64,000 nt of DNA from Rhodobacteraceae bacterium LMO-JJ12 (GTDB lineage: Bacteria; Pseudomonadota; Alphaproteobacteria; Rhodobacterales; Rhodobacteraceae): the NCBI GenBank assembly GCA_021555075.1, contig JAKGBX010000003.1, positions 186,001-250,000 on the forward strand, given 5' to 3'. Both the position numbers and the translations under genes were made by a program. The notes under the pieces are model-generated. The model did no database searches and had not been told where the DNA came from. It worked only from the letters and a program-made list of their open reading frames with translations. Position 1 is the stretch's first letter; every line of letters starts with the position of its first letter. Shown piece by piece: positions 4,306 through 64,000 of this stretch.

Positions 4306-4899
4306 ATGAAGATCGACTTTTGGTTCTCAATCGGGAGCACTTATAGTTACCTGACAGTCATGCGACTTGCCGAAGTCGAAGGAACGTCAGGAATCCGATT
4401 CAGGTGGCGCCCGTTTAATGTGCGTCATGTGATGATCGAACAGAACAACATACCGTTCAAAGACAAGCCCGTTAAGTCTGCTTATATGTGGCGAGACATC
4501 GAGCGCCGTGCGAAACGCTATGGCCTCTCACCGAAGTCTCCTGCACCCTACCCGCTGCCAGGCCTTGTTCTGGCCAACCAAATCGCCATCGTCGGTGTCG
4601 AAGACGGCTGGGTAGAGGATTACGTTCGTGCAACTTATCGACGCTGGTTCGAAAACGGCGAGGCGGCCGGCGAGGAACCAAACCTATCGGCAAGCTTGAA
4701 GGAAATCGGTTGCGATCCAGACGAAGTCTTGGCCGCTGCCCAAACGCAGCGAACCGTAGATCAGTTGGAGACGGCCACCGATGAGGCAATGAACCTCGGT
4801 GTCTTCGGGTCACCTACTTTTGCGGTAGGTCAAGAATTGTTCTGGGGTGATGATCGTTTGGACGATGCCATACACTGGGCGAAAGATAAACCAAGCTAA
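4306..4899 (+). CDS. DsbA-fold 2-hydroxychromene-2-carboxylate isomerase family protein
   Basis: A 197-residue protein of the usual size for the family, with Shine-Dalgarno GGCGGAGG before the ATG. The N-terminus MKIDFWFSIGSTYSYL carries Ser at position 11, the place of the catalytic Ser/Cys of HCCA isomerases and kappa-class GST-like proteins. The C-terminal GVFGSPTF contains the cis-Pro loop. HCCA isomerase uses glutathione in naphthalene breakdown, but no aromatic-degradation genes are near, so the substrate is unknown. It stands alone, divergent from the TRAP/hydrolase fusion. Confidence 0.85.
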   Translation: MKIDFWFSIGSTYSYLTVMRLAEVEGTSGIRFRWRPFNVRHVMIEQNNIPFKDKPVKSAYMWRDIERRAKRYGLSPKSPAPYPLPGLVLANQIAIVGVEDGWVEDYVRATYRRWFENGEAAGEEPNLSASLKEIGCDPDEVLAAAQTQRTVDQLETATDEAMNLGVFGSPTFAVGQELFWGDDRLDDAIHWAKDKPS

Positions 4900-5224
4900 A
4901 TAAAGGCCGGCTTCCAGCACCGTGCTGTCGATTTACACGAACGGCCCTGACTCGCCGTTCGGCTTCGGCCCCTTGCTGCATCGCAGCTTCCCCAGACCGG
5001 CCATTCGTCCATCGTGCAGCATTTTCGGGCCCGGAGGTCGGCAGAGCGGACTTTGCTGCCGTTCAGGGCGCAGAGTCAAAAGACTTCTGTTAGCCCGTAT
5101 TCCGGAAGTAAATCTCTGATTTTTCTGGCGTGGGCACGGTATTGTCGATAAAAATCAGGGGGTGTCTGCTGCCTAGCGTTGCCTTCCCAAGGTGGTCATC
5201 TCGGAAGATTGCCGCGCAGTTGTG
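4900..5224. other. Intergenic with dispersed repeat sequence
   Basis: About 325 bp. It contains the repeat at 4977-5025 and neighbouring words (GAACGGCCCTGA, GGCAGAGCGGACTTTGCTGC) like those in other gaps of this window. No gene is supported. Confidence 0.4.
4977..5025. repeat. Degenerate dispersed intergenic repeat, copy A
   Basis: This 49-bp stretch, with core AGCTTCCCCAGACCGG then CATTC and GCAGCATTTT, matches 13712-13760 with a handful of substitutions. Both lie in gene-free sequence. Confidence 0.6.
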
Positions 5225-5866
5225 TCAGGCCAAGTCGTCAATCGCACGCACGACAGTGCGCTCATGCAACCAATCGTATGCCTTTTGCTCGGTAGAAAAC
5301 TCTAAGTTGGGGTTTCCCAACCGCCAGAGAACACCTGAAATATGCGGTTGAACCTCTTGCATTGTCGTCCAGGCAAACGGTTTCACCCCATCTTGAAAAA
5401 CGACCTTATAAAGGTGCGCACCTTTTTCAGTGGGTTCACCATCATCAACGGGAATGGCCTTGATCGCCCGCGACGATGAAAGGCCAGCAAAGACATATTC
5501 ATTTCCGTTTTCGACAAAAATAGCCCCGAGGTGGTGCTCCTTGACCTGTTGCTCAACCCACTCGCTTTTGCCGGTCTGATACGCTTGATATTCGTCCATC
5601 GACATTGAGAGAGTTTGCAATTGGCTGTGCGATTGCCATGCCCAACTGTGAGCTTCCTTTCGCGCCTTGCGTCGGCTTAGTGTGGCCAAACTCGTGGACG
5701 GGACATAAGCCTCGGGAGAAACTGCGAATTTCTCCACAAACTTCCGGCGGAGAAGGATCGGATTGAGCTCATATTCATCGGCGGTATCGGTCACGATTTC
5801 TGCGGCCCGGCCGCCTTGACCCAAACGATCCTTCAATGTGTCCAAAGCTTCTTCTAATTCAATCAT
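5225..5866 (-). CDS. Hypothetical protein (213 aa) downstream of the OLD nuclease
   Basis: Not recognised. The frame starts MIELEEALDTLKDRLGQGGR. Residues about 18-45 (AAEIVTDTADEYELNPILLRR) could be a helix-turn-helix, which would suit a DNA-binding partner. A basic patch (LSRRKARKEAHSW) follows. The C-terminal half reads as a small alpha/beta domain (KVVFQDGVKPFAWTTMQEV, then YDWLHERTVVRAI). There is no signal peptide or membrane segment. It lies on the same strand as, and about 500 bp beyond, the OLD nuclease and its 183-residue neighbour, so it may or may not share their transcript. Base composition is lower in GC than the cargo genes to the right, suggesting separate acquisition. Confidence 0.6.
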   Translation of the reverse strand: MIELEEALDTLKDRLGQGGRAAEIVTDTADEYELNPILLRRKFVEKFAVSPEAYVPSTSLATLSRRKARKEAHSWAWQSHSQLQTLSMSMDEYQAYQTGKSEWVEQQVKEHHLGAIFVENGNEYVFAGLSSSRAIKAIPVDDGEPTEKGAHLYKVVFQDGVKPFAWTTMQEVQPHISGVLWRLGNPNLEFSTEQKAYDWLHERTVVRAIDDLA

Positions 5867-6372
5867 TTTTACTCAATGAACAGTCTACTTTGAAGGATAC
5901 ACCCCAAGTGGCATGCCGTTTGACGGCAATATCGTTTGATTGGGCCAGTCGATCAAGTGCTTTTTGTTCTGCGCGCCGAGCAACTCCAAACGCGCTCGGC
6001 GATCGAAATTGACCCGATCGCCCGATCCAAACTCGCACGCTCTGGGTGATCCATGAAGCACGCCTCGTGAAACCATCAACACTTTGATTTATATCTGAAT
6101 TAACGAGTTCAGAATAGCGAAATCAGCAGATTACTGGTGGTGTGCGGACTAAAGCTCCAAAGCAGCTATTCGTTCCTTCTGCAGCATCCGGAACTTTGGT
6201 CTCAAAGCCGACCTGCGGCGGCGCGGCATGCATCGCGAGTGTCCGGGCCCTCAGATCGACATCAACGGCCCAAACCAGCCATTCATTGCGTCAGACCGTG
6301 CCGCAATGCAGCGCCCTCATAACGGACGTTGGCACGGTTTGTGAAAGATGGCTCTCACGAAGAGAACTGACG
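5867..6372. other. Intergenic with degenerate repeat words
   Basis: About 500 bp. A 65-residue minus-strand frame at 5885-6082 has no ribosome site or family support. From about 6150 to 6340 the sequence contains words shared with other gaps (CAGCTATTCGTTCC, GGTCTCAAAGCCGACCTGCGG, CCAGCCATTCATTGCG). No gene is supported. Confidence 0.4.
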
Positions 6373-62262: not shown

Positions 62263-63333
62263 TCAGTATCGCCTGTGGGCCCGCAGTACTACTCCAACAG
62301 GCGCTCCATCATCTGGGTTCAGGGCAACGACGACACGGGTCTTCGGTTCTTTCAGTATTTTGACGGCATCCAAGAATGATGAACCTGCTGGCATTGTCCG
62401 AAAGCCGTCCGCGACTGCAGGACTATCCAAGATGTCGGAGATGGTGTGGTCATCCAAATCGATCATGCCATCCAATTCCGACGCTTTGTTTGTCATATAA
62501 AGCGCCAGTTGCTGGTGCGTGATTGCTCCCAAGACGACGTCATTCTCCACGCAAACGAATGCTGCGCATGTTTGGGCCTCTTCCCTCGCAAGGCTAACCA
62601 GCTTGGATGTCTGATCGACGACCTCAAACCTGTGATCAGCTCTGCTCGCCAAGGTAACGGGCGCGGATCCCTCCAGATTTGGCCGGGAACGCATCACAAT
62701 ACTTACGGTTGAATGATGCCGCATCCAGTTGGCCGTGACTTCGCATCGAAGTTCCACCAGTTTGATGATTTTCGAATGCAGGTCAGGGACGTTCATATCC
62801 AGAATAGGCTCATGATGCGCGACCCTGTTTCTCAGGCGGTTGATCTCTCTCACAAGAATCTGGATCTCATGCCGCCCCTCACGGTGGGCAAGCCCCGGAA
62901 ACGCGATATTAGCCTTGGTTCGCCAAATGCTTGCGTACTCGTTGCGAAATAGGTTGGACCAGAAGTCAAAGGTGAGTTCCGCGATCACTTTGCCGCGCTC
63001 GTTTGAGCGCGCTCTTTGCATTGCCTTATCCAAGGCGCCCAGGCTTTCTGGCGTCAGAACGGTATCGCGAAAGTTGGCATTTTGATGCCAAGCAGCCCCA
63101 AAAAGCTGCAGCAGGACGCCGTCCACAGCATTGCGCAGAGTCACTTCCGCCACGCTAAGCGGGAAAAGGAACGATTTCGCAAGCCTTGCGTTGTATAGAT
63201 ATAGGGCGAACGCGAAAGCCTCATCTCCACTGGCTTTCGCGAGGTAGGTGGCGAATCTTGGCTCAGAAAGCGACTCTTTGAGTGAAGCGATCGTCGCCGC
63301 ATCGTACGGGTATGGAACTTGACTCTCAGCCAT
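62263..63333 (-). CDS. HEPN (Abi-like) ribonuclease domain fused to CBS pair
   Basis: 356 residues from the ATG at 63333 (MAESQVPYPYDAATIASLKE); the frame upstream is not used. Residues about 40-200 are an Abi-like HEPN domain: LFPLSVAEVTLRNAVDGVLL and the catalytic R-x4-H as RNRVAHH at about 168-174. Residues about 235-356 resemble a CBS pair (TCAAFVCVENDVVLGAITHQ; GSSFLDAVKILKEPKTRVVV with DDGAPVGVVL). HEPN nucleases of abortive-infection systems cut RNA; CBS pairs bind adenine nucleotides. A nucleotide-gated RNase is therefore a reasonable inference. No antitoxin-like gene is adjacent. Confidence 0.78.
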   Translation of the reverse strand: MAESQVPYPYDAATIASLKESLSEPRFATYLAKASGDEAFAFALYLYNARLAKSFLFPLSVAEVTLRNAVDGVLLQLFGAAWHQNANFRDTVLTPESLGALDKAMQRARSNERGKVIAELTFDFWSNLFRNEYASIWRTKANIAFPGLAHREGRHEIQILVREINRLRNRVAHHEPILDMNVPDLHSKIIKLVELRCEVTANWMRHHSTVSIVMRSRPNLEGSAPVTLASRADHRFEVVDQTSKLVSLAREEAQTCAAFVCVENDVVLGAITHQQLALYMTNKASELDGMIDLDDHTISDILDSPAVADGFRTMPAGSSFLDAVKILKEPKTRVVVALNPDDGAPVGVVLRAHRRY

Positions 63334-63615
63334 CGCGGCGGTACATACCCTTTCAGAGCAGTCGAACTGGCCCCACTGGCTCTTGCTACGCGCCGTCGAC
63401 ATCAGATTGGAACACCAGGTCGGGCAAGTCCCCACCTGGTGTTTCTCTTTTGACGGGATTACCCCCTGAATTCAACCACTTTGGTTTGCGAATGGTGGTG
63501 TAGGAAGTGCCCCTTCCGCTCGCTCAAGAGATGCCGCCAAGTCATACAACATTGGTGATCACGAGCGCCCCATCCACCTGACAAGCGCGCTTGTGAACAG
63601 ACTTCCATTCGGATG

Positions 63616-64000
63616 TTAGTATCGCATGCGCCTACGGATCATCGCCTCATTGTCGTGCCACTCCGCCTCAGCGATGTACTTGCGAACCATCTCACGCAGG
63701 ATTCTCGCCATGCGTGGATGCTCGATCTCGCAAGCTTTAGCCCAGCCCTCGTACTGATCCGCCAACTCTCGCTCTTGCGCTTCGCCTTCACCTCGCCAAG
63801 TCGCACCGCGAGCATTGTATCGCCCGATTGTGATGCCGCGCTCAATCTCGACGCTATACAGATCATTGACAGCCTCCCGTACAGGTTCACAAGTCCATGA
63901 TCCATCGTCTGCCAAAGGAGTGTGTGCGAGGATTTCCCCGATCTGATAATCAAGCATGGCGCGATGACCTGTTGGCTCACTAATGCGCCTTGCCTCGATA
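63616..64000 (-). CDS. Hypothetical protein, partial (runs off right edge)
   Basis: The frame is open from 63616 to the window edge on the minus strand (128 codons), with an internal ATG at 63957 that is a possible start. It ends EAEWHDNEAMIRRRMRY. It is soluble and charged; the stretch EAQERELADQYEGWAKACEI near the middle is helical. The family is not recognised. The sequence before the ATG (EARRISEPTGHRA) reads like protein, so the gene probably begins outside the window. Confidence 0.55.
   Translation of the reverse strand, partial: IEARRISEPTGHRAMLDYQIGEILAHTPLADDGSWTCEPVREAVNDLYSVEIERGITIGRYNARGATWRGEGEAQERELADQYEGWAKACEIEHPRMARILREMVRKYIAEAEWHDNEAMIRRRMRY

Follow-up and report, generated by a model that had tools for sequence, protein, structure and literature searches.

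The DNA analysed here, a 64,000-nt stretch of Rhodobacteraceae bacterium LMO-JJ12 (contig JAKGBX010000003.1, positions 186,001 to 250,000; referred to below as the window), contains on its minus strand a gene for a two-domain HEPN-CBS protein and, directly upstream of that gene, a conserved structured RNA. The coding sequence occupies positions 62263..63333 and specifies 356 aa, from an ATG at 63333 to a stop codon, included in these limits, that ends at 62263. An alternative, longer mechanical ORF starts with a GTG at 63435, and the start at 63333 is favoured because M1, A2 and Q5 are each conserved in >=95% of the 42 family members aligned. The RNA, ~93 nt in length, is located at 63357..63449 on the minus strand and ends 23 nt ahead of the start codon. 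The original prediction for this locus, which was made from the sequence alone, placed the gene correctly at 62263-63333 and left the conserved RNA out.

Related genes were obtained from 49 loci by scanning a collection with one genome per species; judging by record titles, these loci span the Alpha-, Beta- and Gammaproteobacteria. Alignment A1 comprised the window and 38 of the 49 loci, with L027, L031, L032, L042, L059, L061, L062, L064, L066, L067 and L069 omitted as broken, short, without CBS or near-duplicates, while alignment A4 comprised the window and 39 of the 49. Duplicate loci were L002, L003 and L004 (repeats of L027, L025 and L026, respectively), and L001 and L106 duplicate part of L070. 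The structure prediction that had been proposed as a check on the two domains was performed with AlphaFold2 on a 39-member alignment. The resulting model (mean pLDDT 89.8, pTM 0.62) supports both folds, and its comparison by VIA-align gave two separate matches, one for residues 9-221 (HEPN) and the other for residues ~224-356 (CBS).

The HEPN domain (residues 9-221; 62671..63309, minus strand) is predicted to be of the AbiF/PD-T4-5 type. Residues 9-221 were matched by VIA-align to the PbAbiF dimer bound to its ncRNA (8vz6) with Z 12.3, rmsd 3.2 and 203 aligned residues, a score to be read with the caveat that Z below ~13 can reflect mere arrangement in helical folds. The assignment does not stand on this comparison alone, since sequence profiles agree with it. 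Pfam Abi_2 was matched in 39/39 members at E <= 1, and the window protein by itself scored 21.4 bits, under the cut-off of 25.6. The best PADLOC profile was PD-T4-5, with an E value of 1.4e-11 for the window protein over residues 37-177, and all 39 members matched it at E <= 0.1; a Yersinia relative without CBS matched the same profile at 4.2e-32, over profile positions 8-256. By this profile, the protein is a putative member of a defence-type family. The catalytic-type motif R168-N-R-V-A-H173 is encoded at 62815..62832 on the minus strand. R168, N169, H173 and E175 are invariant in the 39 aligned members, and the mean top-residue frequency of the HEPN half is 0.63. It is apparent that the Abi-like HEPN domain anticipated by the original prediction, with its R-x4-H sequence (RNRVAHH) at R168/H173, is borne out.

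The expected C-terminal CBS pair (residues 224-356; 62266..62664, minus strand) is likewise supported. A Pfam search of the window protein alone gave no CBS match; among the 39 members, Pfam CBS was matched in 21 at E <= 1, with a best value of 1.7e-5. When a profile of the C-terminal halves was compared with PDB sequences, the top matches were CBS proteins (best E value 7.8e-16), and VIA-align matched residues ~224-356 to many CBS proteins, with Z values from 12.4 to 10.4 (for 2p9m, Z 12.4 and 118 aligned residues). The model contains two beta-alpha-beta-beta-alpha repeats packed as a pair, the second without its closing helix, and ends in a strand (345-350) that is followed by no helix. Prediction and profile thus point to the same two folds.

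The usual CBS ligand motif is G-x-x-T/S-x-x-D. Its first-repeat version is partial in the family (T272 in 18/39 and D275 in 19/39 members; the window protein has T272 and Q275), and it is absent from the second repeat in the 39-member alignment. The CBS body is weakly conserved, with a mean top-residue frequency of 0.38 versus 0.63 for the HEPN half, and the frequency rises to 0.73 in the last residues. These form a conserved basic tail, [RK]-A-H-R-R-Y (residues 351-356; 62266..62283, minus strand), in which R or K is present at position 351 in 39, H353 in 31, R354 in 33, R355 in 35 and Y356 in 34 of the 39 members. Because the model ends in the strand 345-350, the tail would be placed approximately where the second ligand motif would be. 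A CBS pair that no longer binds ligand, and acts instead as a dimerisation or RNA-holding module while the RNA alone is in control, would fit the kept tail beside the divergent body, as well as the lost second and partial first motif; the CBS-less members found inside the CBS group, described below, point the same way. The fold has, however, been kept over wide divergence, and CBS proteins elsewhere bind ligands despite variable motifs. This explanation, which is compatible with the RNA part of the reading preferred below, is regarded as rather unlikely.

A covarying RNA structure lies at a fixed place upstream of the gene. Between the window and most of its close relatives, the DNA is similar from ~110-150 bp ahead of the start codon as far as the stop codon, and the stretch upstream of the gene is alike in most loci. 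Two stem-loops were recognized on the minus strand. P1 (63413..63441) is paired in 98.9% of cells, and 9 of its 11 pairs are changed on both sides across 40 sequences. P2 (63361..63400), with the internal loop GGCGCNU / CAGWGG, has 12 pairs in three helices, with 84 to 94% of cells paired and changes on both sides in 8 of the 12 pairs across the 40 sequences; it was drawn by reading the sequences, the P2 of RNAalifold being poor, so that pair counts favour it. The checks on this hand-read P2 were slid and shuffled controls and a model, R3, built from gammaproteobacterial copies only, the structure of which was also assigned by hand. The RNA includes unpaired bases that are invariant.

For the 23-pair structure as a whole, 94.5% of cells are paired in the 40 sequences, compared with 81.0% in shuffles; 17 pairs are changed on both sides (11.2 in shuffles), double changes occupy 141 cells (41.8) and the covariation score is 0.421 (0.181), none of 500 shuffles reaching the observed value in any case, with the caveat that related sequences can exceed shuffles without any structure. 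The number of further pair types (25) was not above that in shuffles (26.8), and this counts against a restraining RNA. When the structure was slid by 1-3 columns, at most 46.9% of cells were paired, and the slides, together with the compensatory changes in P1, are a stronger argument for the predicted structure than the shuffles. In 11 loci searched against Rfam, nothing at the RNA reached the gathering score. Matches to the window and L052 stretches were weak and unrelated, the best being a DnaX element at 23.2 bits (gathering score, 35); for these two RNAs RF03085, the Rfam abiF family, was absent among matches at E <= 10, which counts against an AbiF-like reading. A scan of the window stretch for a promoter and a terminator returned no match, and this too counts against restraint by the RNA; the scan of L052 returned one promoter-like site, at about chance level.

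It was of interest to see how closely RNA and gene occur together. Model R1 was built from 34 sequences (the window and 33 of the 49 loci) and scores 101 bits against the window RNA, a member of its training set. It matches upstream of the gene in 49/49 loci, 43 of them at >=53 bits and six (L062-L066 and L068) at 18.1-33.0 bits; of the 16 loci outside the training set, 10 gave a strong match. On 18 control loci holding other CBS matches, R1 gave none at E <= 10. Across 289 genomes of the class it had matches in six, at more than 40 bits in three (G000, G441 and G524), each just upstream of a family gene, and at 24-28 bits in the others. The protein profile matched 22 of the 289 genomes, two in the CBS part only (G473 and G618) and two at full length (G000 and G441).

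Model R3, built from 12 gammaproteobacterial copies, found the window RNA in its own 4.35 Mb genome at 69.4 bits (E 1.3e-18), the next match being at 14.1 bits (E ~1); there is thus one clear copy in that genome, without tandem repeats. R3 matched all 36 family sources that had not been used to build it, counting that of the window (30 at >=51.9 bits and six at 14.3-35.4), and none of the 18 control loci at E <= 0.1. The upstream RNA persists beside family genes that are broken or interrupted at L034:4573-7071 and at L027, L059, L062, L067 and L069. At L034 the RNA is situated ~1.3 kb upstream of the gene, with a transposase-like frame (4770-5972, recognized by eye) between the two. Loss of the protein seems to be common among family copies.

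In the samples taken, relatives that lack the CBS half are more numerous than those that have it. In a tree of 88 HEPN domains, from a sample drawn with a CBS-bearing query, all 45 rows with CBS fall in one group (support 99/93), which also holds three rows without CBS (L061, L064 and L066). This arrangement suggests one gain of CBS and a few losses, so that the pair was probably gained once on a lineage that already combined HEPN and RNA. The CBS-less members of the group keep the RNA, with R1 scores of 74.6 bits (L061), 19.6 bits (L064) and 29.5 bits (L066). L135, from G524, lies outside the CBS group and has the RNA at 42.5 bits, which suggests that the extended RNA is independent of CBS.

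Further afield, a regular expression for the loop, GCGCNU/CAGWGG, was found in 15 of 50 relatives, fragments and duplicates having been left out, versus 1.1 expected from mononucleotide shuffles; of the 15, L165 is a CBS member and L138 looks spurious. The loop GG[CA]GCNU/CAGAGGC occurs in a hairpin upstream of 13 relatives (two being gene fragments) that do not belong to the CBS type, and many CBS-less relatives have other upstream hairpins. A single RNA model for all relatives was tried and rejected: R2, built from 13 motif-chosen relatives, matches P1 and not P2 of the CBS loci, at no more than 27.2 bits. Since R2 misses P2, the case for homology between the two RNA types is the motif, which the CBS-type and CBS-less RNAs appear to have in common, and they are not claimed here as one proven RNA family. 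Upstream of the HEPN genes of L160, L164, L168 and L007, all without CBS, two successive hairpins were seen, a terminator-like one and then one containing GGGGRGGC and GUCCCG-like stretches; this arrangement does not resemble the CBS-type RNA.

One CBS-less HEPN gene (L139:1044-2875, from G600) is flanked by five copies of an RNA-bearing repeat, spaced at steps of ~194-200 nt; three precede the gene and two follow it. The downstream copies suit action of the RNA in trans, and they bear on a further explanation, in which the RNA acts in cis as a leader, controlling how the gene is transcribed or translated, and does not neutralise the protein. A precedent would be lactococcal abiD1, which has a structured leader that is bound by a phage protein, according to the accessible portion of the relevant paper (PMC12373285). 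The distance of 23 nt between the RNA and the start codon, with no terminator following the RNA in the window, would suit a leader. The copies downstream of the L139 gene would not, however; nor does the conserved structure contain any obvious pairing between the RNA and the start region, and the nearest fold match, PbAbiF (8vz6), binds its RNA as a protein partner. A leader of this kind is therefore considered unlikely.

The genomic setting of the gene is suggestive of mobility. The most similar protein, at 87% identity, is from Labrenzia (Stappiaceae), whereas the copies in three genomes from the family to which the window belongs are 72-78% identical, a relationship that makes transfer between families likely. 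The gene order held in common with one congeneric genome ends at ~61649. Beyond the window, a tRNA gene is found at L070:6655-6741 (~64654-64740 in window numbering) and, upstream, a serine-recombinase-like frame recognized by eye at L070:16140-16778 (~74139-74777); the two together suggest an integration site. The upstream neighbour (63616-64000, minus strand, continuing to ~64473) encodes 285 aa with no family above the cut-off (DUF4404 at E 0.015), and a similar gene is at the same place in L021. No general operon partner was detected, in that no neighbour family occurs in more than 5 of 44 loci; the gene directly downstream is common to three of the 44 (L029, L031 and L032). A 694-aa helicase-like frame, recognized by eye, lies downstream of the family copy in L034 (7141-9225).

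Among plasmids, the RNA and the start of the gene were found in 58 records, 53 of them from Agrobacterium and 49 at >=99% identity; E. coli rows among the matches listed cover about half of the query. In one Ti plasmid record the downstream gene, which starts ~10 bp past the HEPN-CBS gene, is a PADLOC DrmC match (E 1.8e-95). At L126:7887-10703 (Agrobacterium Ti plasmid) the RNA is followed in turn by the HEPN-CBS gene, the DrmC-like PLD gene and a frame of 130 aa, and an integrase gene is close by. The DrmC-like defence neighbour and the kinship to PADLOC profiles are indirect hints at a role in phage defence.

The original prediction was aware of no characterised defence system that pairs HEPN with CBS in exactly this way. 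On this point it needs amending: the pairing is already known, HEPN-CBS fusions having been reported in 2013 (PMC3710099) and a one-protein CBS and HEPN system, DS-11, having been described in 2026 as protecting E. coli against phage (PMC13092281). The 2013 work put forward the same idea of ligand-controlled RNA cleavage; its examples include alr3009 (CBS and HD) and a Pelobacter protein, and no upstream RNA is mentioned in the accessible portion of that paper (PMC3710099). According to the text available for DS-11, defence fails when the HEPN catalytic residues or Y157 of the CBS part are mutated, the CBS residue being a predicted adenine contact, and no RNA partner is mentioned there (PMC13092281). 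In the window protein residue 157 falls in HEPN helix 154-172 and the CBS pair starts at ~224, so that, by residue numbering, the layout of DS-11 is probably different. For this reason it is very improbable that the window protein is simply a member of the characterised DS-11 family, in spite of the same two domain types in one protein; an Enterobacter member of the present family, moreover, had no match, and hence no E. coli relative, in 20,395 E. coli records in a DNA search that would miss distant relatives. No report of a HEPN-CBS protein with an upstream RNA was found in the accessible text of PMC papers under CC0, CC BY or CC BY-SA licences.

The DS-11 results also bear on the mechanism first proposed for this locus, nucleotide gating of the RNase by its CBS pair, taken here as the sole control with an incidental RNA. 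The CBS fold is secure, and DS-11 no longer defends when a CBS residue that is a predicted adenine contact is mutated (PMC13092281). The presence of the RNA at all 49 family loci argues against an incidental RNA, however, as do the RNA-like elements that precede CBS-less relatives, and control by the CBS pair alone is judged quite improbable. The original prediction thus identified the domains and the catalytic motif correctly, and missed, besides the precedents for the pairing, the RNA.

The closest parallel is with AbiF (AbiD/F, Abi_2; PbAbiF-AbiFr 8vz6 and C. difficile AbiF-RCd22), which has the HEPN fold, the R-x4-H motif and a mobile setting, and whose gene is immediately preceded by a structured RNA in the same orientation. 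In the accessible portions of the literature, the AbiF toxin is described as neutralised by its upstream RNA both in cis and in trans (PMC12373285), and PbAbiF as a dimer with one RNA per monomer, in which unpaired RNA bulge bases block the RNase (PMC12737573, a review). The locus described here differs in its added CBS pair, in an RNA unmatched by RF03085 and in a neutralisation that is presumed by analogy. PD-T4-5, a plasmid-borne AbiF/D relative that causes abortive infection against T4, has no RNA partner named in the available text (PMC9519451), in contrast to the upstream RNA here. The PD-T4-5 profile, although the best in PADLOC for the window protein, is matched over positions 30-204 of 309 only. 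We know of no CBS domain in PD-T4-5. Type III toxin-antitoxin systems (ToxIN, AbiQ and kin) similarly have an RNA directly upstream of a presumed RNase toxin; the window locus differs from them in its HEPN fold and in a single RNA copy rather than tandem repeats.

Taken together, these data are best explained, with a probability of roughly 60%, by an AbiF-like, RNA-restrained HEPN RNase carried on mobile DNA, in which the CBS pair supplies a second input and phage takeover leads to abortive infection. Both predicted folds, the unvarying catalytic residues and the covarying RNA at its constant position ahead of the gene are supported directly, whereas transcription of the RNA, RNase activity, neutralisation, ligand binding by CBS and phage defence are inferred. 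The unit would pair a single RNA with a single protein and travel as mobile cargo. Its RNA, as the leader of a transcript that continues into the gene, would probably be the first part to be transcribed; it would fold into P1 and P2, bind the HEPN dimer and keep the putative RNase inactive, as the upstream ncRNA of AbiF does. Restraint of the AbiF type is suggested by the HEPN type and the gene order, both as in AbiF, and by the invariant unpaired bases of the RNA. The CBS pair may bind a small ligand, for which a nucleotide is the likeliest candidate, or the RNA itself by way of its basic tail, and so shift the dimer towards restraint or towards activity. A ligand is plausible because defence by the HEPN protein DS-11 needs a CBS residue, as far as the accessible text goes (PMC13092281). 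Phage takeover would then cause the RNA to be lost or the ligand level to change, and the freed HEPN dimer would cut cellular RNA, phage growth being stopped by abortive infection. Of the two inputs, the upstream RNA is, by analogy with AbiF, the likelier main restraint on the RNase. Counted against this reading are the incomplete CBS ligand motif, the single RNA copy at the window locus and the presence of the RNA beside CBS-less genes (L061, L064, L066 and L135). In a more specific version, the locus would encode a doubly gated ribonucleoprotein, in which a CBS ligand (a nucleotide, a dinucleotide or an S-adenosyl compound) decides whether the RNA-restrained HEPN dimer retains its RNA, and the basic tail touches the RNA. 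This version is put forward tentatively, as possible rather than probable.

If this version is correct, the family would represent an RNA-antitoxin system that reads the nucleotide state of the cell. AbiF and its RNA have been proposed as ancestors of Cas13, in the accessible portions of two papers (PMC12165695, PMC12737573), and the system would lie near the AbiF side of that proposed path. A widespread sister type, in which such an RNase has both a CBS module and a covarying RNA that Rfam does not contain, would illustrate how restraint by RNA can be combined with the sensing of small molecules within one small unit. The findings also suggest that RNA partners are worth seeking for PD-T4-5 and DS-11.
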